A stretch of 64,000 nucleotides of DNA from a virus. Of this stretch, positions 1 through 58,488 are shown piece by piece. Every line of letters begins with the position of its first letter. Within the stretch, counting starts at the first letter, position 1. Where the stretch lies: positions 1 through 64,000 of IMG/VR virus record IMGVR_UViG_3300042261_001117. The stretch is one strand, 5' to 3'. Position numbers and translations under genes: made by a program. The notes under the pieces were generated by a model, which ran no database searches, was not told the origin of the DNA, and saw only the letters and a program-made list of their open reading frames with translations.

Positions 1-2
1 CG

Positions 3-590
3 TTCTCGCTGGTGGGCTGGCTGCCGAACGCGGTGGAGTGGGGCTGCGAGCCGTACGACATGCGGACGACGCTGCTGCACGGTCCGAACGCGCAGGTCGT
101 TCCGCGTGGGCAGCCCGGCATCCACGAGGGCAAGAAGGGGCGCTACAGGTCGATCCCGTTCCGCCACTACACGCCGGGGTCGAGCGGGTACGAGGGCTCC
201 GTCATGGGGATGCCGTACGAGCAGATGCTGGGGCCCGACGCCGCGCGAAAGCTCGGTCAGCAGGTCTACAACACGATGCGCGCGCGCGTGGCCGCAGCAA
301 AGGCGAGCGGCTCCGCGAGGACCGTGCGGCTTCCGGCGTCTGCTGGCGGGCCACTGCTTCGCCCGCACCACACGACCGGCATCTACACCGGCATGGTCCG
401 TCCAGAGCGCGCGTACAAGGGCACCACGCAGGGCTTCTACCAGACGTTCCGCACCATCTCGGACGGCAACCCGGTGGGGTGGATGCACCCGGTCATCGAG
501 CCGCAGGGGCTGATGATGGACACGGTGTCGTACCTCGAGCAGACCGCGGGAGCCACGCTCGTGGAGATCATGACCGCAGGTGACGCATGA
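3..590 (+). CDS. Virion morphogenesis protein, 5'-truncated by window edge
   Basis: The reading frame is open from the first bases of the window, so the true start lies upstream; the GTG at position 12 is unlikely to be the start. About 195 residues are visible and I do not recognise the family. The stop overlaps the ATG of the next gene (ATGA), so the two are translationally coupled. Its place just before a tail-terminator-like gene and the sheath gene suggests a neck, head-completion or tail-completion role. That is inference from order only. Confidence 0.6.
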   Translation, partial: FSLVGWLPNAVEWGCEPYDMRTTLLHGPNAQVVPRGQPGIHEGKKGRYRSIPFRHYTPGSSGYEGSVMGMPYEQMLGPDAARKLGQQVYNTMRARVAAAKASGSARTVRLPASAGGPLLRPHHTTGIYTGMVRPERAYKGTTQGFYQTFRTISDGNPVGWMHPVIEPQGLMMDTVSYLEQTAGATLVEIMTAGDA

Positions 591-1279
591 ACGACGGCGT
601 CGACAAGATCGTGGCGGACTACCTCGAGCGCGTGAAGGTCACGCTGCTGACCGACGACGCGCTGTGGACGCGGCTGCTCGGGCGGTCGCTCGACGCGGCA
701 ACGATCGCGGTGGTGCGGGACTCGTTCCGCGGCGCGAAGGAGCACGTGGCCACGCCCACGGTGGTGCTGGCGTACCCGCGCAGCCGCCAGCCGTGGCCCG
801 TGTGGTGCGTGGTCCTGCTCGAGGACACGCCCGACGAGGAACTGCTCGGAGAGAGCGAAGGCATCGAGCGGGACGACGAGACCGGCGAGGACGTCGAGGT
901 GCAGACGATCGTGAGCCGCCAGACGGTGGCGATCATGGTCATCGACAACCGCAACCCGGACATCGCTCGGTGGCAGTCGATGCTGGTGAAGCGCGCGATG
1001 ATGATGGGGCTCAACGAGATCCTCAGCGACGAGGAGAACTCCGTCAGCGGGATGTACTTCAGCGGAATGGGCGACATGCCTCCGATGCCGTGGCTGCCGG
1101 AGGAACTGTACGGGCGCACGCAGCGGTGGTCGTTCGTCGTCGCGGAGAGCGTCGCGAGCGGCTACGACGGGCTGGTGCGCGGGCCTCTGTACGTAGGAGC
1201 GGAAGGCTTCGTCCTCGACGAGGATGGTGAGGTGACCGGCGGCGGGCACGCGTACAGCACCCGCGAGGACGAGGAGTAG
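587..1279 (+). CDS. Putative tail terminator / tail completion protein
   Basis: This is a 230-residue soluble protein with no membrane segment and an acidic loop around residues 83-105. Residues around 165-180 (PMPWLPEELYGRTQRW) resemble the late strand of tail-terminator and neck proteins, which often precede the sheath gene in myoviruses. It starts with an ATG inside the stop of the upstream gene. A hairpin and promoter follow it and separate it from the sheath operon. The assignment rests mainly on position. Confidence 0.5.
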   Translation: MNDGVDKIVADYLERVKVTLLTDDALWTRLLGRSLDAATIAVVRDSFRGAKEHVATPTVVLAYPRSRQPWPVWCVVLLEDTPDEELLGESEGIERDDETGEDVEVQTIVSRQTVAIMVIDNRNPDIARWQSMLVKRAMMMGLNEILSDEENSVSGMYFSGMGDMPPMPWLPEELYGRTQRWSFVVAESVASGYDGLVRGPLYVGAEGFVLDEDGEVTGGGHAYSTREDEE

Positions 1280-1306
1280 GCGCCGGGGCTTGTGCCAAAC
1301 CGGCGC
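1280..1306 (+). other. Inverted repeat overlapping the sheath promoter -35
   Basis: GCGCCGG (1280-1286) and CCGGCGC (1300-1306) form a perfect 7-bp inverted repeat that begins directly after the stop codon of the preceding gene. The 3' arm lies in the promoter spacer and the -35 lies in the loop. It could be a weak terminator without a U-run or an operator. Confidence 0.45.
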
Positions 1307-1318
1307 TGTGGGTAGAAT
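1290..1318 (+). promoter_or_regulatory. Promoter of the sheath/tail operon (TTGTGC-17-TAGAAT)
   Basis: TTGTGC at 1290-1295 and TAGAAT at 1313-1318 are separated by exactly 17 bp, 27 bp upstream of the sheath ATG. The same -35 hexamer with the same spacing recurs at 17884-17912 before another structural gene, which supports a real late/structural promoter class. Confidence 0.65.
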
Positions 1319-1344
1319 CGAGCGGACACGCGGAGGGACAGGCC

Positions 1345-3381
1345 ATGCCGGAGCAGTTCGTCATCAACGGAGTCGGGTCGTACGAAGAGGGCGTGCGCAC
1401 GCGTGCGGACTTCAGCGCTCTCGAGGGCGCGGGCACCGCGACGAAGGGCACGGTCGGGCTGCTCATGGAAACCTCGCGCGGCGGGAAGCCCACCACCGGG
1501 CAGGAGATCACATCGGCTGCGACGCTGCGGCGGCTGATCCCCGAGCCCTACGCGACGTACCTCGAGAAGACGCTGTTCGCGCCGGGCAAGCAGAGCGACC
1601 GCATCCCCATGGGCGCACAGAAAATCATCTTCGTCCGCGTCAACAAGGCGGAGCAGGGGACGCTGACGCTGGTCAACGACGACGGCGACGCGGTCGACCT
1701 CAAGAGCGCGGACTACGGGCTGTACGCCAACGACATCCTCGTGACCGTCGCGAACGGCACCAGCGTCGGCCGCAAGGTCACCGCCGTGCTCGGAAGCGTG
1801 ACCGAGGTGGTCGACGACGCTGGCGACCTCGACGCGCTGCAACTGAAGTTCACGGCGCCGGACACGCCCGGGTACACCGTGCTGGGCATGGTGGCGACGG
1901 TCGACCCGGACGTGGGCGTGCAGGTCGACTTCGACCTGCGGCACGCAGACAACAGCACGTGGGACTGGACCGCCGCCAACAACAAGATGGCCATCGACGG
2001 CCCGCTGACGATCACCATCGAGCACACCGAACTGGCCAACAAGGTGTTCGTGGTGACCGGGCGCAACAAGGCGAACGGCGCGGTCACCGTCGAGAACGTC
2101 CAGATCGACGCTGGGCTGAAGACCGAGACGTCGCTCACCGAGTGGTCGGAGATCACGTCCATCGAACTTCCGGACCTGCTCGACGGCGGCAACAACAACC
2201 GTGCGGAGTTCACCGGGCACGCGTTCGACCTGCCGGTCGCGACGTACGACACCATCAGCAAGGTCGCAGCGCGCGTGGCCACGAAGGCCGCCGCTGGCTT
2301 CACCGCCACGCTCAAGACCGCCAAGACGTCGTTCCTCGTGTCGGACCTCGACAAGGCGAGCGACCAGACCATCGTCGGCGGGCACACGTTCACCGCGGAC
2401 CTCTACGACTTCATCGAGGACGTGAACGCCGGTCTGACGCTGATCACCGCGGAGCGCGCGGCGTCGGTCACCGCCGCGGGGCTGCCGAACACCATCGGCG
2501 AGACCGCCATGGCGGGCGGCAACGACGGGCTGTACGACGACGGCACGTCGTGGACCGACGCGCTGAAGGAACTGAAGAAGTGGGGCAAGTCGCTGCTGCT
2601 CCCGATGACGGCCGACGCGGGCATCCTGGCGTCTTGCCTCGACCACTGCGTCTACATGTGGGGACGCGGGAAGTACGAGTGCGCGATGTTCGCGGCTCCG
2701 CCCGCGCAGACGGACCTGACCGGAGAGGACGACGACAACCTCTACGCGAAGACGAGGGCGTTCAACAGCGAACTGGTGACGTTCACGCCCCAGGAGATCA
2801 AGCTCTACGATCACAACCGCGTGGCGCAGTGGCTGTCGCCGATGTGGACGGCGGCGCTGGCGTGCGGCTGCGAGGCCGGGCGCTCGCCGGACTACGGGCT
2901 GACGCACGCGTACGTCGACGTGGTCGACTACCGCGACAACCCGGACGGCGACTCGCCGTGGACGGTCGAAGACCAGACCGAGGAACTGCTGGGGCACGGG
3001 TGCTTCGTGCTCGAGCGCAACCTGTCGACCGGCGGGGTGCGGTGGAAGCGCGACGTGACCACGTACCAGATCGACTCGAACCCGATCAAGTCGTCGCTGT
3101 TCGCGATGACGCAGTTCGCGCTGTCGACGCGCGACCTTCGCGAGTGGCTGGAGATCCAGATCGGCAAGGCGCAGTGGACGGGGTCGCGCAAGGACGTCGA
3201 GAAGCTCGCGCGCCAGAGGCTGGAGTACCAGATCGGCGCGAAGATGATCAAGGCGTTCAAGCCCCGCACGGTCAAGGCGATCGACCTGGGCAACGGCTTC
3301 CGCGTCGACTGGCACGTGGCGCCCGCGGAGACGACGTACTTCATCGAAGCGGTCGCGCACCCGATGCGCATGCCGTCGTAG
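1345..3381 (+). CDS. Contractile tail sheath protein
   Basis: The 678-residue protein has the organisation of myovirus tail sheaths. The N-terminal domain has the typical pattern of a named end, a GKP..GQEITSAATLRRL segment near residues 48-67 and a beta-rich region (VRVNKAEQGTLTLV). The C-terminal domain has the conserved restart-type segment ERNLSTGGVRWKRDVTTYQI (about 556-575), then a helical run and a closing beta strand. The next gene is tube-sized, as expected for sheath-tube pairs. In virions the sheath polymerises around the tube and contracts to drive it through the envelope. The ATG is preceded by GGAGGGACAG and by a consensus-like promoter. Sheath identity is based on length, terminal motifs and gene order. 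Confidence 0.88.
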   Translation: MPEQFVINGVGSYEEGVRTRADFSALEGAGTATKGTVGLLMETSRGGKPTTGQEITSAATLRRLIPEPYATYLEKTLFAPGKQSDRIPMGAQKIIFVRVNKAEQGTLTLVNDDGDAVDLKSADYGLYANDILVTVANGTSVGRKVTAVLGSVTEVVDDAGDLDALQLKFTAPDTPGYTVLGMVATVDPDVGVQVDFDLRHADNSTWDWTAANNKMAIDGPLTITIEHTELANKVFVVTGRNKANGAVTVENVQIDAGLKTETSLTEWSEITSIELPDLLDGGNNNRAEFTGHAFDLPVATYDTISKVAARVATKAAAGFTATLKTAKTSFLVSDLDKASDQTIVGGHTFTADLYDFIEDVNAGLTLITAERAASVTAAGLPNTIGETAMAGGNDGLYDDGTSWTDALKELKKWGKSLLLPMTADAGILASCLDHCVYMWGRGKYECAMFAAPPAQTDLTGEDDDNLYAKTRAFNSELVTFTPQEIKLYDHNRVAQWLSPMWTAALACGCEAGRSPDYGLTHAYVDVVDYRDNPDGDSPWTVEDQTEELLGHGCFVLERNLSTGGVRWKRDVTTYQIDSNPIKSSLFAMTQFALSTRDLREWLEIQIGKAQWTGSRKDVEKLARQRLEYQIGAKMIKAFKPRTVKAIDLGNGFRVDWHVAPAETTYFIEAVAHPMRMPS

Positions 3382-6658: not shown

Positions 6659-8176
6659 ATGGCACTTCTGACGCCGGTCACATCGATCAAAGCCATCATT
6701 CGTCCGCACTGGCCACCGACGCGTGCGGTGGACGTCAGCCGGTACGTGACGTTCATGAGCCGGTCGAAGTCGCTGCTCGGCGATACGGTCGGGACGTGGT
6801 CGCTGTCGATGTTGTGCGAGTACCGCGGCGAAACGGATCGCTTCATCGAGTCAACAGTGCGCCCCGACGACTGGATCGACCTGATGATCAAGGTCGACGG
6901 CGTCGAGTCGTGGTGGACGGGCATGGTGGACTCCACTGGACGCGGGAAGGTGACGCAGACCGGCGACGGCGGGCTGGTGCGATCGTGGAGGCTGGCCGGG
7001 CGCGACTGGGCGAAGGCCATGGTGACCGGCTCGGTGAAGGTCGGGTGCATCTTCTCGTCGTCGCTGATCGTGCCGCAGCAAGACGCAAGCGGTGCGCTCA
7101 CTGATTCGATGTTCTCGTTGATCTCCGCATTGCCGAAAATCCCGGCAGCGCTGATGTCGGGCGAGGCGCTGTCGCCCGAACTACAGTCCGCACAGGAATT
7201 CATGACGCACCCGCGCATCCCGGGCGTCATCGACCAGCAGTTGTGGGACCAGATCGTCGCTGCGACGTTCACGATCGGGCGCAGCCCGTGGATTCCGATC
7301 GCGGCGGCGCTGGAGCTAGCGCTCTGGAAGCAGTGGCAAGACCCGGATGGTGTGTCGCTGCTCGAGAAGCTCGGAACCGACTGGCCGCGCTTCGGGAAGT
7401 TCGCGTCGCGCGAGGTCGAAGGCGAGGTGTGGCAGCTTCCGCAGTTGATGGAGCAGCGGGAATTGAGCCCGCACCAGATGCTGCAGAGCTACGGGAACCC
7501 CGCGTTCAACGAGGTGTTCTACGCCTACCGCGAAGACGACCCGCGGCGTCCGGCCATCGTTTTCCGCGAGCGCCCGTACGCCGGAGACGCGTGGCAGTAC
7601 CTCGTGGACCATCGAACGCGCGTCACCACCGTCGCGGAGTGCGATCCCAGCAGGTCTGACTCCGAGCGCATCACATACCGCATGCCCAGGTCGGTGATCG
7701 CGGGCATGAACGGCGTCGACCAACTGATCGACACGCGCGACGGGCGACTGCCCATGGTCGACATGAGCCAGATCTCGCGACACGGGCTGCGCACCGCCGA
7801 GCCCGCCGACGACTACAACATCCCCACCACGAGGGCGGACGCAGACCAACTGGCGTTCTTCATCGACCGTGCGAGGCGCTGGCGCATCTGGACGTTCAAC
7901 GCTCCGGAGTACCTGACCGGTACGGCGTCGCTGTCGCACGCGAACACTGCGGTGCGCATCGGGACCGCCGTCGAGCTACCCGTCGAAGCGACGTTCCGCA
8001 GGTTCGATGGCGTGATCATCGAGGCTCCGACCATCGTCGCGTACGCAGTGGGCGTCGACGAGCAGGTGCGCATCGACCCGCGCGGTGGCGGTGCGACCTC
8101 GAGCATGACGATCAGCTTCACGCGCGGGCAGCCGCTCGGCGGACTGCCGGTACCGAACGAGGACACGTGGCTGTGA
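6659..8176 (+). CDS. Putative baseplate hub protein (gp27/gpD-like)
   Basis: The 505-residue protein starts 3 bp after the tape measure stop. The N-terminal 120 residues show the pattern of phage hub proteins: an opening strand, a segment in which the ligand value is set (IESTVRPDDWIDLMIKVDG) and a WWTGMVDS strand equivalent to the field-correction strand of gpD/gp27-type hubs. The C-terminal half is beta-rich. It would sit at the centre of the baseplate, between tube and spike. The downstream gene overlaps it by 10 bp and encodes a spike-like protein, which supports the role. Confidence 0.55.
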   Translation: MALLTPVTSIKAIIRPHWPPTRAVDVSRYVTFMSRSKSLLGDTVGTWSLSMLCEYRGETDRFIESTVRPDDWIDLMIKVDGVESWWTGMVDSTGRGKVTQTGDGGLVRSWRLAGRDWAKAMVTGSVKVGCIFSSSLIVPQQDASGALTDSMFSLISALPKIPAALMSGEALSPELQSAQEFMTHPRIPGVIDQQLWDQIVAATFTIGRSPWIPIAAALELALWKQWQDPDGVSLLEKLGTDWPRFGKFASREVEGEVWQLPQLMEQRELSPHQMLQSYGNPAFNEVFYAYREDDPRRPAIVFRERPYAGDAWQYLVDHRTRVTTVAECDPSRSDSERITYRMPRSVIAGMNGVDQLIDTRDGRLPMVDMSQISRHGLRTAEPADDYNIPTTRADADQLAFFIDRARRWRIWTFNAPEYLTGTASLSHANTAVRIGTAVELPVEATFRRFDGVIIEAPTIVAYAVGVDEQVRIDPRGGGATSSMTISFTRGQPLGGLPVPNEDTWL

Positions 8177-35742: not shown

Positions 35743-35827
35743 TGCAACCGGCTCTGTTCACCAATCAAGCTCTCGCGCCCCCCGGTGGTGGCGACTCTTC
35801 GGAGCCGGTTGCACCCACCACCGGGGG
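35743..35827 (+). ncRNA. Two interlocked long inverted repeats in the replication leader
   Basis: Arm A (35743-35754, TGCAACCGGCTC) is perfectly complementary to A' (35802-35813). Arm B (35779-35791, CCCCCGGTGGTGG) is perfectly complementary to B' (35815-35827). The order A-B-A'-B' means the two hairpins cannot both form fully, since only 1 nt separates A' from B'. A further CCACGC/GCGTGG pair (35828-35833 with 35855-35860) frames the region before the ribosome-binding site. The 135 bp are noncoding. They could be a two-state RNA leader, a small RNA or a DNA element at the replication origin. Confidence 0.6.
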
Positions 35828-35872
35828 CCACGCGAGTTTTGTGCGCTGGGCGTAGCGTGGCGAGGAGTGCGC

Positions 35873-36985
35873 ATGGGCGGCACTAGCTGGGTACGCATGG
35901 ACGCAGCGTACGACGACCATCCGGACGTTCGGCGCGCTGGGCTTGAGGGTAGCGTGGTGTTTCAGGCGCTCGTGCGCAGATCGAAGCTGTTTGGCCTCGA
36001 CGGCATCGTCAGCAAGAAGTACCTCGACGTGGAGTACCTAGCGGACGTGCTGAAAGCTCCACAGGACTTCATCCAGCGCGGGCTGGTGGCGTGCTTGCGC
36101 GTTGGACTGATCCGCGACGGCGATGGCGGCGTGACGATACCAGGGTGGGATCGCTTCCAGAGTCCCGACACGTTGCGGAAGCAGCGCTACACGGAACGGC
36201 ACGGACGAGACGCAGCAGATGGTGCGCAGCAGGTTGATCCGTTCCTGTCCGTTCCAAGAACGGACGAGAACGGACGAGAACGGATTGGAACGGATTGTCC
36301 GTCTGACGTGACGGTACGTGACGAGACAGGACGTGACGAGACGCACGAGCACTGCGCGCGCGCGCGTACGCACGAGGATTCGACCCCAGCACCCGCCGCA
36401 CCGACCACGCCGCCGCCTGATCCCGCGCGGCTCGCTGCGATCCGAAACGAGATGGCCATGGCGGACGCGCAGCGAGAAGCCGAGAGCGGCGTGCGTGTGC
36501 GCCCACTTCGCGTCGATCCGGAGCGCGAGGCCCGTGACGCCGCGTGGGCGGAAGAGATGGCGCTAGCGGCCAACGTCGCGCACGACGACGGCAAGATCCT
36601 CTCGGTCTACCAGCACTGGCTCGACTCCGCGGGTTTGCCTCCGCGCTGCATGTGCCCCGACGACCTGTACATGGGCAAGACGTTCCGACTGCTGGTGCTG
36701 GAGCGGCTGAGAGACGGGCTGACCTACGACGACATGAAGCGGGCGATCACGTCGTGCCACGGAAGCAAGCGGCATCAGGAGCGCGGCGTGTCGGGGTGGG
36801 GCGCTATCCTGCGGTCGCTCTCGACGGTGCAGGAGTTCATGGCAATCGCCAACGCGAAGGCCAAGCCGCAGCAGCGATCGGGTAGGCTGTCTGACGAGGA
36901 ATTCGCGAAGCGGTACGAGGAGCGCAAGGCGGAGAAGGCGCGGAACGAGGCGCTGCTGGCACAACACGGTCGGGGTCCGAGATGA
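35873..36985 (+). CDS. Putative replication initiator (DnaD/O-like)
   Basis: The ATG at 35873 has a GAGGAG site 5 bp upstream; length is 370. Residues 1-110 (VRMDAAYDDHPDVRRAGLEG to GWDRFQSPDTLRKQR) match the winged-helix N-terminus of phage replisome organisers. Residues 225-345 form a helical domain (WLDSAGLPPRCMCPDDLYMG to GAILRSLSTVQEFMA) like DnaD-type C-termini. The linker between them is coded by repeated DNA described separately and gives an odd RDETGRDETHEH peptide. The next gene is helicase-loader-like. The pair corresponds to lambda O and P in layout. Confidence 0.65.
   Translation: MGGTSWVRMDAAYDDHPDVRRAGLEGSVVFQALVRRSKLFGLDGIVSKKYLDVEYLADVLKAPQDFIQRGLVACLRVGLIRDGDGGVTIPGWDRFQSPDTLRKQRYTERHGRDAADGAQQVDPFLSVPRTDENGRERIGTDCPSDVTVRDETGRDETHEHCARARTHEDSTPAPAAPTTPPPDPARLAAIRNEMAMADAQREAESGVRVRPLRVDPEREARDAAWAEEMALAANVAHDDGKILSVYQHWLDSAGLPPRCMCPDDLYMGKTFRLLVLERLRDGLTYDDMKRAITSCHGSKRHQERGVSGWGAILRSLSTVQEFMAIANAKAKPQQRSGRLSDEEFAKRYEERKAEKARNEALLAQHGRGPR
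36239..36342 (+). repeat. Iteron-like repeats inside the initiator gene, candidate replication origin
   Basis: CCGTTC occurs at 36239-36244 and 36249-36254, and its complement GAACGG starts at 36258, 36268, 36278 and 36288, giving four tandem 10-bp units (two GAACGGACGA, two GAACGGATTG) in helical phase. GTCCGTTC and GAACGGAC (36247-36254, 36258-36265) form a perfect palindrome around CAA. Then ACGTGACG occurs at 36306, 36316 and 36331, the last two as 12-bp ACGTGACGAGAC repeats. Lambda and related phages keep initiator-binding iterons inside the O gene, so an origin is a reasonable inference. Confidence 0.6.
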
Positions 36986-37683
36986 ACCAGACTCAATGGC
37001 GCACCCACTGGAACAGTTTGCTGATCGGGTACCAGCGACGAGACGCCAGCGAGGAAGAGGAGCTTCTGTACCTGGAGCACCTCGAGAAGTGGCAGCCGGA
37101 GATCGTCGCGGCTGCGGTAAACGCTGCACTGGAGGAGGAGTCGTACTTCCCGCGCATCCAGTCTCTGGTGTCGCGATGCCAGCAGATCGAGCACGACGCC
37201 CGGCGGGAAGCTGCGAACTCAAGGCCACGACCGGCGGAGGAGTACGACGCGAACGCGCGCACGTACGCGTGCAGGAACTGCCTCGACACGGGCATGATCG
37301 ACTGCACGATTCCGCGCGGGAAGCATCTGATCGTCGGCATGGACGGGCGGCTGCGGTTCCGAGACGCGCGGTCGACGTCGGTGACGTTCTACTCGAACTG
37401 CCGCGTGCGCTGCACGTGCGATCGTGGGCTGGCGAAGCCCGCGTCGTTCGGCGCGCTGTTCTCGCCGGTGATGTTCCGAGCGCTGGGCTGGTGGGCGAAC
37501 AGGCAGCACGCGCACATCAACGCCATCCACGGCTTCCGGGTGTTCGCGTCGTCGGAGGAATACGTCGCGTGGGCGGAGGAGCAGGTTGGCAGGGTGGTGC
37601 CGGGCTCGCATCGAGCGCCGGATCGAGCGCCGGAGTATCAGGATCGGCGCGTGACCGACTTCGACAGCGAGGTGAACTTCTGA
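36982..37683 (+). CDS. Putative helicase loader with zinc-binding cysteines
   Basis: The 233-residue protein overlaps the initiator stop by ATGA. Residues 1-70 (RTHWNSLLIGYQRRDASEEE, LEKWQPEIVAAAVNAAL, FPRIQSLVSRCQ) have the helical pattern of phage P-type helicase loader N-termini. Residues 92-155 contain ACRNCLDTG and CRVRCTCDRG, four or more cysteines suited to a zinc site. No AAA+ motif is present, so it is not DnaC-like. Role inferred from order after the initiator. Confidence 0.55.
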   Translation: MNQTQWRTHWNSLLIGYQRRDASEEEELLYLEHLEKWQPEIVAAAVNAALEEESYFPRIQSLVSRCQQIEHDARREAANSRPRPAEEYDANARTYACRNCLDTGMIDCTIPRGKHLIVGMDGRLRFRDARSTSVTFYSNCRVRCTCDRGLAKPASFGALFSPVMFRALGWWANRQHAHINAIHGFRVFASSEEYVAWAEEQVGRVVPGSHRAPDRAPEYQDRRVTDFDSEVNF

Positions 37684-39146: not shown

Positions 39147-39965
39147 ATGGCTGGGATCTACGAGCCTCGCGGGCGCGCACTGGAGTACAGCCCGCTGGCG
39201 CTCAACCTGTACAACGGCTGTGACCACGCGTGCTCGTACTGCTACAACCGGCGCATTTACCGGTCGAACTGGACGGCCGACGCGAAGCCCATGGCGTGGC
39301 TCACGCTCGACGCGCTGCAGAAGACGTGCGAGAAGTACGCGGGCAGCCTCGATCAGGTGCTGCTGTCCTTCGTCGGCGACCCGTACTGCGCGGCGGACGA
39401 ACGCGAGCGCTGGACGCGCGTGGCGCTGGAAGCGCTGCTGCACAACCGCATTCCCGCTGCGGTGCTGACGAAGGGCGGCAATCGCTGTCTGCGGGACGTG
39501 GACCTGTTCCGCGCGTTCGGTCGGTCGATCATGGTCGGTGCGACCATCACCGGCATGGACGACCTCGAGTCCGGCGCCGCGACGAACCAGCATCGCTGCG
39601 ACGTGCTCGATGAACTGGCTCGGTGCGGTGTGCCCACCTGGGCGTCGTTTGAGCCGGTCATCGACCCGGAGAAGTCGTTGGCGTGGCTGGCGTACGTGCT
39701 TGATCGCGGTGCGGTGTGGATGGTCAAGATCGGCAAGTGCAACCAGTGGGGCGGGTGCGACGACTCGAAGATCGACTGGGCCAAGTTCCTGGCCAACGCG
39801 GTCGGCATCTGCGAGGAGTCGACGGTGCGGTACTACATCAAGGACTCGCTGTGGATCGCGGCGGGGCGGCCGGAGTTCGTGTACGTCAACCACGCGGTGG
39901 CGATGGACGACGGCCACCGCAACCCGCGGCTGTTCCAATCGGAGCCGTTCGGAAAGGTGGCATGA
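39147..39965 (+). CDS. Radical SAM protein, SPL-like
   Basis: The 272-residue protein has the cluster motif CDHACSYCY (about 28-36, CxxxCxxC), which binds the [4Fe-4S] cluster that cleaves S-adenosylmethionine. A GDPYCAADERERW segment (about 78-90) and alternating strand/helix pattern complete the partial TIM barrel, as in spore photoproduct lyase-like and Rv2578c-like proteins. Phages carry relatives of unknown substrate; repair of DNA lesions or base modification are options. It is coupled to a small gene and a DNA methylase, which favours DNA as the target. Confidence 0.8.
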   Translation: MAGIYEPRGRALEYSPLALNLYNGCDHACSYCYNRRIYRSNWTADAKPMAWLTLDALQKTCEKYAGSLDQVLLSFVGDPYCAADERERWTRVALEALLHNRIPAAVLTKGGNRCLRDVDLFRAFGRSIMVGATITGMDDLESGAATNQHRCDVLDELARCGVPTWASFEPVIDPEKSLAWLAYVLDRGAVWMVKIGKCNQWGGCDDSKIDWAKFLANAVGICEESTVRYYIKDSLWIAAGRPEFVYVNHAVAMDDGHRNPRLFQSEPFGKVA

Positions 39966-44119: not shown

Positions 44120-45568
44120 ATGGCACGAAAGCGATCGGCAGCGGACCAGACGCCGCTGACCATCGACGACCTCGCATCCGACCCCCGCAACCCTCGCACC
44201 ATCTCGGAGACCGCGCTGGCTGGGCTTGACGTGTCGGTGACGACGTGGGGCGACCTGTCGGGCATCACGTTCAACCGCAGCAACGGGCAGTTGATCGGCG
44301 GGCACCAGCGGGTTCGTCTGCTGCGCGCAGCCGGAGCGCAGGTGCAGTACGACGAGCGGGGCCCGTTCCTGGTCGACCCGCGCACCGACGAGCGCTTCCC
44401 GATCCGCGTGGTGGACTTCGACGAGGAGAACCACCTCGCGGCCAACCTCGCAGCGAACGCGCCAAACCTGCAGGGTGAGTTCTCGGTCGACGCGTTGCCG
44501 ATCTTGGAGTCTCTGTCCGAAGACCTGCCGGACCTCTACGGGTCGCTCGGGTTTGACGCGCTGGCGGAGACGCTCGGCGCGCAGTTCAAAGAGCCCGACG
44601 CCGGTGGCCCGCGCACGACCACGCCCGGTGAGCACGACGACGACGTCCCGCCAGCGCCCAAGAATGTCGTCAGCCGGACGGGAGACATCTGGTGCATCGG
44701 GAAGCACAAGCTGATCGTCGCGGACGCGGGAGATCGCGCGGCCATCGCGAAGCTGATGGGGGGGGGCGTCGCGGATCTGTGCTTCACCAGCCCGCCGTAT
44801 GGCCAGCAGCGCGAGTACAAGAGCGGTGGCATCAACGACTGGGACAAGCTCATGCAGTCGGTGTGCGCGGCTCTTCCGATGGCGCAGGACGGGCAGGTGC
44901 TGGTGAACCTGGGGCTGATCCACCGCGACAACGAGTACATCCCGTACTGGGAGCGGTGGATCGAGTGGATGCGGTCGGAGGGGTGGCGGCGATTCGCGTG
45001 GTACGTGTGGGACCAGGGAGCGGGCATGCCCGGCGACTGGGGCGGTCGGCTGGCTCCGGCGTTCGAGTTCGTGTTCCACTTCAACAAGGCGTCGAAGCAT
45101 CCGAACAAAATTGTGGAGTGCAAGAACGCGGGAAAGGTGTCGCATGGCGTGGGCGGCGACGGTCTTCGCGGCAAGGACGGCGAGTTCGGGACGTGGCAGC
45201 ATGGCGGATCGCCGACGCAGTCGCATCGCATTCCAGACTCTACGATCCGCATCGAGCGACACCACGGAGCGATCGGCGACGACATCAGCCACCCCGCGGT
45301 GTTCCCGGTGGCGCTTCCGATGCACGTGATCGAGGCATACTCGCAGCACGGAGACGTGCTGTACGAGCCGTTCTGTGGCTCCGGGACCACGATCATCGCG
45401 GCGGAGCGCACGGGTCGCGTCTGCCGCGCTGTCGAGCTAGCGCCGGAGTACGCGGACGTGACGCTGGCGCGGTTGTCGCAGGTGTTCGAGAACATCCAGA
45501 TCACGCTCGAGTCGACAGGCGAGGCGTACGAGGTGGTCGCGGCTCAACGGGACGGAGGTGACGCGTGA
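44120..45568 (+). CDS. ParB-like/DNA methyltransferase fusion 1 (SPPY type)
   Basis: The ATG at 44120 follows GAGGAGG; length is 482. Residues 1-155 are a ParB/Srx-like domain (LASDPRNPRTI, QLIGGHQRVRLLRAAG, IRVVDFDEENHLAANL). A linker and an amino-methyltransferase domain follow, with motif IV LCFTSPPYGQQREY (about 220-233) before motif I EPFCGSGTTIIAAE (about 415-428), the beta-class order. SPPY is typical of N4-cytosine enzymes but not restricted to them. The ParB part often guides or regulates the methylase. The next gene has the same plan. Confidence 0.85.
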   Translation: MARKRSAADQTPLTIDDLASDPRNPRTISETALAGLDVSVTTWGDLSGITFNRSNGQLIGGHQRVRLLRAAGAQVQYDERGPFLVDPRTDERFPIRVVDFDEENHLAANLAANAPNLQGEFSVDALPILESLSEDLPDLYGSLGFDALAETLGAQFKEPDAGGPRTTTPGEHDDDVPPAPKNVVSRTGDIWCIGKHKLIVADAGDRAAIAKLMGGGVADLCFTSPPYGQQREYKSGGINDWDKLMQSVCAALPMAQDGQVLVNLGLIHRDNEYIPYWERWIEWMRSEGWRRFAWYVWDQGAGMPGDWGGRLAPAFEFVFHFNKASKHPNKIVECKNAGKVSHGVGGDGLRGKDGEFGTWQHGGSPTQSHRIPDSTIRIERHHGAIGDDISHPAVFPVALPMHVIEAYSQHGDVLYEPFCGSGTTIIAAERTGRVCRAVELAPEYADVTLARLSQVFENIQITLESTGEAYEVVAAQRDGGDA

Positions 45569-46890
45569 GCGAGCAGAAGTTGCTGAGCATCGACGAACTG
45601 GCAAGCGCTCCATGGAACCCACGGACCATCAGTGATGCGGCACTGAGTGGGCTCGGCGGTTCGATCAAGGCGTTCGGCGACCTCGCTGGGATCGTCTGGA
45701 ACGCTTCCAACGGGCAGTTGGTCTGTGGCCACCAGCGCATCAAGGTGCTGCGCGCCAAGGGTGCGACCATCGAGCACGACGAACGCGGGCCGTTCATCGT
45801 GGACCCGGAGACCGGCGAGCGCTTCGGAATCCGCGTGGTCGAGTGGTCGGAGGATCGCCACGTGGCAGCATGCATCGCGGCCAACAACACCGCGATCACC
45901 GGCGAGTTCACCGCGGACACACTCCCCATGCTCCAGTCGATCGCGGACGACGATCCCGCGCTGTTCGCTGGTGCGGGCTTCGCACCGCTGCTCGAAGCGC
46001 TCGGGATGCAGTTCTCGGACACGCGGAAGGCCGGGCAGAGCGATCCGGACCAGGACGTCGCGCCACCTGCGCCCGAGGAGACCATCACCAAGACGGGCGA
46101 CATCTGGCTGTGTGGGCCCCACCGCGTGGCGTGCGGCGACTCGCTGAAGGACGAAGACCTTGTGCGCCGCCTGTTCAACGGAGGGCTGGCGGACATGACC
46201 TTCACCGATCCGCCATACAATGTGAACTACGGCGAGACGATGAAAGACAAGCTTCGCGGGCCGAAGCACAAGAAGATCGCCAACGACAACCTCGGCGCGG
46301 ACTTCCCGGCGTTCCTGCTGGACGCGTGCAAGGTGATCATCGCGTGGACGAAGGGCGCGTGCTACGTCTGCATGTCGTCGTCGGAGTTGCACTCGCTGCA
46401 GAAGGCGTGGCTGGACGCCGGAGGGCACTGGTCGACGTTCATCATCTGGAAGAAGCACACGTTCACGATCGGCCACGCTGACTACCAACGGCAGTTCGAG
46501 CCGATCCTCTACGGATGGGGCGAGGGCACGAAGCACTTCTGGTGCGGGGCCCGGGACCAGGGCGACGTGTGGGAGATCGACAAGCCGAGCCGCAGCCCGC
46601 TGCACGCGACGACGAAACCGGTGGCGCTGGCGGAACGCGCGATCGTGAACTCCTCGAAGAGCCGCGACACGGTGTTCGAGCCATTCTGCGGGTCGGGCAG
46701 CACGCTGATCGCGTGCGAACGTACCGGGCGCATGGCGCGCACGTGCGAACTCGATCCCAGCTACGTGGACGCGCAGGTGGCGCGGTGGATGGCGTACTGC
46801 GGCGGGCAGGCGGTGCGCGAGTCGGACGGCTACAAGTTCCCGCTGGACGCTCCGGTGTTCAAAAAGGTCGCGGAGCAGAAGGATAAGTAA
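45565..46890 (+). CDS. ParB-like/DNA methyltransferase fusion 2 (DPPY type)
   Basis: It starts at GTG inside the stop of fusion 1; length is 441. The ParB-like part (1-150: ELASAPWNPRTI, QLVCGHQRIKVLRAKG, RHVAACIAANNT) is clearly homologous to that of fusion 1. The methylase has MTFTDPPYNVNYG (about 211-223) and EPFCGSGSTLIACERTGRMA (about 371-390). DPPY points to N6-adenine. A gene duplication followed by change of specificity explains the tandem pair. Confidence 0.87.
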   Translation: MSEQKLLSIDELASAPWNPRTISDAALSGLGGSIKAFGDLAGIVWNASNGQLVCGHQRIKVLRAKGATIEHDERGPFIVDPETGERFGIRVVEWSEDRHVAACIAANNTAITGEFTADTLPMLQSIADDDPALFAGAGFAPLLEALGMQFSDTRKAGQSDPDQDVAPPAPEETITKTGDIWLCGPHRVACGDSLKDEDLVRRLFNGGLADMTFTDPPYNVNYGETMKDKLRGPKHKKIANDNLGADFPAFLLDACKVIIAWTKGACYVCMSSSELHSLQKAWLDAGGHWSTFIIWKKHTFTIGHADYQRQFEPILYGWGEGTKHFWCGARDQGDVWEIDKPSRSPLHATTKPVALAERAIVNSSKSRDTVFEPFCGSGSTLIACERTGRMARTCELDPSYVDAQVARWMAYCGGQAVRESDGYKFPLDAPVFKKVAEQKDK

Positions 46891-49173: not shown

Positions 49174-49279
49174 GCTTGTGACCGCTTGCTTCGGCAAGCA
49201 CGACAACTTGGTTCCTCACGGTGGCGGTGGGCATCTTCCCTTCGGGGCAAGCGGCACAAGCAACCACCGCCCCGTGGGG
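49174..49279 (+). ncRNA. Structured, pseudoknotted leader of the HNH gene
   Basis: Four pairings are seen: GCTTGTG 49174-49180 with CACAAGC 49255-49261; a UUCG-capped hairpin, GCTTGC/GCAAGC, at 49184-49199; a second UUCG hairpin, CTTCCC/GGG-C-AAG, at 49235-49251; and GGCGGTGG 49223-49230 with CCACCGCC 49264-49271. The last crosses the first, so a pseudoknot results. CCCC-GT-GGGG (49270-49279) closes the region. It lies between the transglycosylase stop and the HNH start and is GC-rich, unlike the gene it precedes. Family unknown. Confidence 0.5.
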
Positions 49280-49300
49280 AGCCTCGCTTACGGTGCTGAA

Positions 49301-49966
49301 ATGCCACGAAAAGCGCTATATGGTGACGATCGCCTGGGCGCTATCATAAACATGATTGCAGTAAAGTCGATTGTTAAAGACGGATGTCTGATATACACTG
49401 GTTGTAAGGATGGTAGGTACCCATACGCGGAGGTGGATGGTCGCCATATTGCATTAAGCAGACTGATATACGCGATTGTTTTTGGCAACATACCGGATGG
49501 TATGTACGTATGCCATAGATGCGACAACAAGCGCTGTGTAAACCCGGATCACCTGTTCATTGGCACACCGGCAGACAACACGCACGACATGATGAACAAA
49601 GGGCGTCAAAGATTCGATTTGTCGCGTCCCGGGCGGGCGGCGGAGGTCGGGAATATAGGGTGGAGCGGAAAAACGACAAGGGGACAACGCATCGTTGAGT
49701 TATTACGCGACGGAGTTGAGCGAACAACGCGTAATGTTGCAGAGCATCTTGGGTGCGATGTGTCTGCGGCAAAGCAAAGTTTGAAACTAGAACAAGAACA
49801 TGGGAGAATCAATGTAAGGAAAGTCGCGCTTGTTACAATAAAAACCGGCGCAGTGCCAATATCACGCACAAAAAAACGCTATCGCGAGTCCAGTAGGCGC
49901 TTGGTTAGTATGTGGTCAATACACTGCAATACGCTTGCCATCCTACGACACCGGAAGGAGACCTGA
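49301..49966 (+). CDS. HNH homing-type endonuclease, low-GC insertion
   Basis: The 221-residue protein has an HNH_3-type core, [20 protein letters not shown] (about 71-90), then [11 protein letters not shown], with two CxxC-like pairs and the HNH His residues. A helix-turn-helix follows at about 125-165 ([20 protein letters not shown]). Codons are AT-richer than in all neighbours, a sign of recent transfer. The frame is open upstream to 49139, but that part is the structured leader. No ribosome-binding site is clear. It inserts between intact genes, so it is a free-standing homing gene. Confidence 0.82.
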
Positions 49967-58174: not shown

Positions 58175-58488
58175 GCGGCTCCGGCTCCGGCTACGGCGAC
58201 GGCTCCGGCTCCGGCTCCGGCTCCGGCGACGGCTACGGCTCCGGCGACGGCTACGGCGACGGCTACGGCTACGGCGACGGCGACGGCTACGGCGACGGCG
58301 ACGGCTACGGCTCCGGCGACGGCTACGGCTCCGGCGACGGCTACGGCGACGGCTACGGCTACGGCGACGGCGACGGCTACGGCGACGGCTCCGGCGACGG
58401 CTACGGCTCCGGCGACGGCTACGGCGACGGCTACGGCTACGGCGACGGCGACGGCTACGGCGACGGCTCCGGCTCCGGCGACGGCTAG
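58162..58488 (+). CDS. Gly-X repeat protein (GSGYGDG low complexity)
   Basis: Starting at ATG 58162 inside the preceding gene, the 108-residue product is MDRVS followed by strict alternation of Gly with Ser, Tyr or Asp. A larger unit of about 26 residues (SGDGYGSGDGYGDGYGYG and onward) recurs two to three times. All Gly codons are GGC and the others TCC, TAC or GAC. Such sequences resemble phase-separating or adhesive low-complexity proteins. No ribosome-binding site is evident apart from coupling. The stop overlaps that of the minus-strand gene (CTAG). Confidence 0.6.
   Translation: MDRVSGSGSGYGDGSGSGSGSGDGYGSGDGYGDGYGYGDGDGYGDGDGYGSGDGYGSGDGYGDGYGYGDGDGYGDGSGDGYGSGDGYGDGYGYGDGDGYGDGSGSGDG
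58175..58488 (+). repeat. GGC-NNC hexanucleotide tandem repeat
   Basis: The DNA is a run of GGC followed by TAC, GAC or TCC, about fifty 6-bp units with higher-order blocks of about 78 bp. Slippage or unequal exchange would change the length in whole-codon steps. Confidence 0.8.

Follow-up and report, generated by a model that had tools for sequence, protein, structure and literature searches.

Why should the gene for a putative replication initiator carry, in the middle of its coding region, an array of short DNA repeats spaced by one helical turn, and could this array be the site where replication of the phage genome starts? We addressed this question in a window of 64,000 nucleotides, the whole stretch of DNA that was analysed, which corresponds to bases 1–64,000 of a virus record of 89,276 bp (IMG/VR). 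The other 25 kb of the record were also read. The features at and around the array are the following (window coordinates):

35873..36985, + strand: P0001, candidate replication initiator of 370 aa that contains the array (open frame, ATG after AGGAG; family matches)
35873..36223, + strand: N-terminal domain of P0001 (aa 1–117), probable DNA-binding domain (weak collinear family matches)
36193..36209, + strand: degenerate upstream copy GGAACGGCACGGACGAG (repeat families D1 and D7; the cluster of approximate matches begins here)
36238..36254, − strand: two copies of TCCGTTC, inverted copies of the putative iteron, starting at 36238 and 36248 (sequence, repeat and pattern counts)
36258..36297, + strand: four copies of GAACGGA, direct copies of the putative iteron, GAACGGACGA twice and then GAACGGATTG twice, starting at 36258, 36268, 36278 and 36288 (10-bp pitch)
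36304..36343, + strand: second block, 5-bp periodic (TGACG-like), containing three copies of ACGTGACG (Tandem Repeats Finder, pattern positions)
36677..36943, + strand: C-terminal domain of P0001 (aa 269–357; positions 207–307 of 315 in phrog_16167)
36982..37683, + strand: P0002, 233 aa, candidate helicase loader, in ATGA overlap with the initiator gene (overlap geometry, position)

The repeat array and the gene that contains it

A preliminary description of this DNA had reported six copies of CCGTTC/GAACGG in both orientations with 10-bp phasing, followed by three copies of a second sequence, in the linker of a replication initiator gene. All these elements were found again. The six heptamers are located at 36238–36294, each step being exactly 10 bp, and ACGTGACG is present at 36306, 36316 and 36331. 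Tandem Repeats Finder assigned periods of 15 and 5 to the second block, which can also be read as eight copies of TGACG. We add to that description GGAACGGCACGGACGAG at about 36193, a weaker relative of the array just 5′ of it. The array starts 365 bp into the coding region and encodes residues 122–157, which places it in the linker, between match regions at residues 1–110 (N-terminal) and 269–357 (C-terminal).

P0001 is most likely a replication initiator, as had been proposed, since both of its halves match families of such proteins, each weakly. Residues 269–357, and only these, matched the C-terminal part of phrog_16167, annotated as 'replication initiation protein' (E 1.4e-4), and the C-terminal part of P0001 also matched phrog_18020, 'replication initiation O-like', with an E-value of 0.12. 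In the N-terminal half, residues 4–109 matched phrog_3926 ('replication initiation protein', E 0.017). The N-terminal domain matched PF09681 (Phage_rep_org_N) with an E-value of 0.028 and 14.9 bits, and the whole protein scored 12.2 bits; the curated cut-off of PF09681, 23.3 bits, was not reached. An hhalign comparison of P0001 with a profile of 12 initiator sequences gave a probability of 24%. Among the non-significant tblastn matches of the N-terminal part (E≤10) were several annotated RepA-like initiators, replisome organisers and replication initiation proteins. Pattern-based scans gave no close relatives of the initiator, the terminase or the SbcC-like protein, and a sequence search against solved structures returned nothing relevant. 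A single-sequence AlphaFold model was too poor to be used (mean pLDDT 46.8).

The downstream protein P0002 had no significant family match. No DnaB gene was recognisable in the record, and therefore the phage probably depends on the DnaB helicase of its host. From where P0002 lies, and as the record has no DnaB gene of that kind, our guess is that it is a helicase loader.

Just 5′ of the initiator gene, a long GC-rich hairpin is located at 35772–35842 of the window, formed by CCCCCGGTGGTGG/CCACCACCGGGGG, extended by CTCTCGCG/CGCGAG and then followed by TTTT. Its loop side contains GAGCCGGTTG at 35802, for which CAACCGGCTC at 35745 is an alternative partner. The hairpin resembles an attenuator with two alternative pairings; its overall fold was no better than that of shuffled sequences (z −0.73), and it was not among the calls of a simple terminator scan.

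Selection on the DNA or on the protein

Six copies of one 7-mer within 67 bp occurred at the array and at one other site in the 89,276-bp record. In Markov simulations of the genome (n=15), three to five copies of one 7-mer were reached, compared to six in the array. Furthermore, the self-match of the array (0.50 at lag 5 and 0.60 at lag 10) exceeded that of all 17,834 sampled genome windows at both lags. When the 15 most periodic genome stretches were compared, only the array had a period not divisible by three (non-3n), all other strong repeats being 3n. The array is not explained by chance.

The other six-copy site consists of in-frame 12-bp repeats near 65,710 (record 65701–65800; L002 1701–1800) that encode peptide repeats of the ASLR/ASLW type, and it may be regarded as the protein-level counterpart to the DNA-level array. 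A 6-bp unit present 52 times at 58176–58487 of the window encodes a glycine-rich SGSGDGYG repeat protein.

The array was then compared with synonymous versions of itself, in which the protein was kept fixed and the codons were redrawn at genome usage. None of 20,000 recodings equalled the lag-10 self-match of the array (0.59 in this test; recoded mean 0.43, maximum 0.56). The heptamer count after recoding was 0.37 on average and four at most, whereas six are observed. For codon adaptation, the array ranked within the bottom 0.2% of 1,613 genome windows, and its GC3 was 0.53 versus 0.78 for the whole gene. When the 46 longer genes called in the window were all scored for synonymous-recoding periodicity, the initiator candidate reached a z-score of 7.4 and the runner-up 2.0. 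Because the recodings fail to match the periodicity and codon adaptation is poor, the DNA sequence of the array is constrained beyond what the protein needs. The proposal that DNA rather than peptide was selected here is borne out by these recoding and codon-usage tests, and also by arrays on the opposite strand, with a different peptide, in other phage initiators (L012, L043 and L049; see below). If the origin reading given below holds, the array clearly illustrates how one piece of DNA can carry two codes at once, that of binding sites and that of codons, at a cost that can be measured in codon choice.

Repeat arrays in other initiator genes

We searched 2.9 million viral contigs for three copies of GAACGGA at 10-bp spacing. 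Matches were found in 26 contigs, and in 13 of these (about 10 of them distinct) the array was judged by reading to be mid-gene in an initiator-like open reading frame. In L012, it is on the opposite strand of the initiator-like frame and accordingly encodes a different peptide. The scrambled control GACAGGA, also in three copies, likewise matched 26 contigs, 12 of them in initiator-like frames, including L043 and L049 with the array on the opposite strand. As this control was equally frequent and had the same initiator bias, GAACGGA was ruled out as a diagnostic motif. It is the presence of short non-3n arrays in initiator genes, not the heptamer itself, that is the diagnostic design. No viral contig matched a pattern that combined one inverted copy with two direct ones. 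In bacterial genomes, GAACGGA gave many matches in few MAGs, among the matches listed especially in one Lentisphaerae bin; these bacterial matches do not enter the evidence.

Ten array-bearing proteins from both motif sets were compared with PHROGs, and seven of these were replication proteins. The N-terminal part of the array-bearing frame of L013 matched phrog_16167 with an E-value of 4e-36, making it a strong member of this family. By eye, DnaB-like genes could be seen downstream in L012, L013, L031 and L056. The peptides encoded by the arrays of some other initiators are themselves repeated (ERNGT or DRTGQ). In two related large phage contigs, L017 and L029, a DNA methyltransferase gene carries a long array of the pentamer GAACG at its extreme N-terminal end or close to it, and these arrays differ from the initiator cases.

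Since the loci of the motif scans had been selected by their repeats, we also sampled initiators without regard to repeats. To that end, 46 initiator genes were picked from public bacterial genomes by protein family only (phrog_1408, phrog_16167, PF09681 and DUF1376), and about 8 kb were taken on each side; that the DNA in these bacterial contigs is prophage is an assumption. An array was counted where non-3n periodicity reached 0.60 or more across 50 bp; by this measure, 16/46 initiators had one versus 3/279 neighbouring ORFs (Fisher p 1.4e-12). When a synonymous-recoding control was applied (60 recodings per gene, z≥4), the numbers were 13/42 initiators versus 0/153 neighbouring genes (p 4e-10), in a sample where some loci are possibly related, L277 and L278 giving the same array. 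Periodicity at 3n was also raised in the surveyed initiators, but less than non-3n periodicity.

Among the 22 initiators with z≥2, the array was mostly located between codons 77 and 242, and the lag was 11 in 12 cases and 22 in four. About half of the surveyed initiators had no detectable array, so the layout is common but not universal. Lambda O scored only 0.58 on the same detector (lag 24), indicating that the detector favours short pitches and overlooks spacing of the lambda type. In the prophage initiator gene of L248 (about 7169–8170, − strand), the near-palindrome GAACATGTTCC forms a conspicuous 11-bp array, and this gene would be a good model for initiator-binding tests.

We think it somewhat likely that a helically phased protein-binding array (5, 10, 11 or 22 bp) in the initiator linker is a general design of phages and prophages across bacterial phyla. 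If so, this design would not be peculiar to the lambdoid and a few Gram-positive phages, and a non-3n DNA period that the protein does not explain would locate origins directly in unannotated phage genomes, of which the present phage would be an example with 7-bp sites spaced by one turn. We found no general survey of initiator-gene arrays in the non-subscription literature that was searched; the precedents found were lambda and SPP1.

The array as a putative replication origin

The iterons bound by lambda O lie midway in gene O itself; O strains the adjacent AT-rich DNA, after which P brings DnaB (PMC6022878, PMC7466680). In SPP1, the repeats of oriL to which gp38 binds are part of gene 38, and gp39 loads the helicase; of the two SPP1 origins, about 13 kb apart, one is in gene 38 (PMC6316719).

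The array described here is like ori-lambda in that a mid-initiator array encodes the linker between a DNA-binding and a partner-binding domain, both putative in P0001 (PMC6022878, PMC7466680). The preliminary description had pointed to the same relative place in lambdoid phages, and the codon positions agree well with this: the lambda iterons occupy codons 116–144 of O, and the array occupies codons 122–157. In addition, O and P overlap by ATGA (O ends at 39585, P starts at 39582), with the same geometry as P0001 and P0002. The two loci differ in the repeats themselves, as lambda has four 18-bp dyad iterons with starts 20–24 bp apart (PMC6022878), whereas the heptamers here are spaced at 10 bp, occur in two orientations and are joined by a second, 5-bp-periodic block. 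Lambda also has a 39-bp AT-rich region, of which there is no marked counterpart here. Homology to the lambda O and P proteins was not detected beyond the weak C-terminal match to the 'O-like' family. A strict lambda-type origin, with 18-bp dyad iterons and an AT-rich region, was looked for and rejected, as neither was present.

SPP1 oriL is alike in having direct repeats inside the gene of the origin-binding protein and the helicase loader gp39 in the replication module (PMC6316719). By description, SPP1 differs from the present phage in encoding a DnaB-type helicase of its own, in its AT-rich element and in having a second origin. The replisome organisers of the streptococcal phages SM1 (gp19) and Javan584 have weak N-terminal similarity to P0001 (E 0.5–0.8, not significant alone) and likewise carry a mid-gene tandem repeat, in their case a 12-bp unit of the palindrome GTAACGTTACA. 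The palindromic unit and the AT-rich hosts set them apart from the present phage, and their 12-bp period, being 3n, is outside the non-3n statistic. Helically phased linker-coding arrays also occur in about a third to half of the sampled prophage initiators (phrog_1408, phrog_16167, DUF1376); these mostly have a pitch of 11 or 22 bp and other repeat sequences, compared to 10 (and 5) bp here.

The best reading is that the array is an origin embedded in the initiator gene, with the lambda/SPP1 layout, in a variant whose iterons are 7 bp long and one turn apart and which lacks a clear AT-rich element. We consider it very likely that this iteron cluster, lying in the linker-coding part of the phage's own initiator gene, is its main replication origin. 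The heptamers would be bound by the N-terminal domain of the initiator. With one helical turn from site to site, the bound protomers would be aligned on one face of the DNA in an ordered nucleoprotein complex, and this complex might strain the nearby DNA. The C-terminal domain, together with the downstream protein, may then recruit the host replicative helicase. No strong AT-rich element was found at the array, where AT is at most about 43% per 100 bp; the least stable 50 bp in the array rank only within the bottom 1.6% of the genome, and the array should be somewhat easy to melt. GC skew, which had been suggested as a check, showed no turn at 36 kb. It is positive nearly throughout and nearly all called genes share one strand; the check was uninformative and lends the origin reading no support.

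Phased repeats are also typical of operators and autoregulation sites, and the array could be an operator for its own gene or for the replication operon, bound by the initiator or by another regulator, with replication starting elsewhere. None of the sequence tests used here tells whether binding would serve transcription or replication. However, at 365 bp into the coding region the array is farther in than a promoter is likely to lie, no sigma-70-like site turned up near it, and the arrays of other initiators share the mid-gene place, which in lambda and SPP1 is the origin (PMC6022878, PMC6316719). We therefore regard the operator function as unlikely.

It is very unlikely, in our view, that the array is a true initiator-binding site serving a secondary origin or copy control (an incompatibility-type site), with the main origin elsewhere. 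Such an arrangement would fit the lack of a marked AT-rich element, and in SPP1 gene 38 holds just one of two origins (PMC6316719). On the other hand, a search of the record for another cluster of GAACGGA-like sites gave none, with at most three approximate copies per 90 bp outside the array, compared to seven in it.

Finally, linkers tolerate repeats, and some other initiators do encode repeated peptides, but a by-product of slippage or peptide selection in a tolerant linker, with no function of the DNA, is highly improbable, as the periods of 5, 10 and 11 are non-3n, unlike those of all remaining strong repeats in this genome, simple slippage cannot yield inverted copies, the signal is lost on synonymous recoding, arrays on either strand in other initiators lead to unrelated peptides, and the survey excess survives the synonymous control.

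In most sequenced phages, origins are unmapped. If the reading as the main origin holds, the sequence would reveal the origin even of a phage that has no close relatives, through an initiator gene with a DNA period not accounted for by its protein.

Some further observations concern the record as a whole. The first 1,354 bases (window 1–1354) are repeated by the last 1,354 (87923–89276; L003 5923–7276) with 53 mismatches. With this end repeat the record closes to about 87.9 kb, though it is possibly classed as linear, and the assembly may mix two strains. The most AT-rich island of the genome (57–59% AT) is located at window 49250–49900; HNH-like text was seen there by eye and probably belongs to a recently acquired HNH endonuclease gene. 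At window 44120–46890, two similar genes are adjacent to each other; their C-terminal halves match a DNA methylase (N6_N4_Mtase), and a ParB-like N-terminal stretch was seen by eye.
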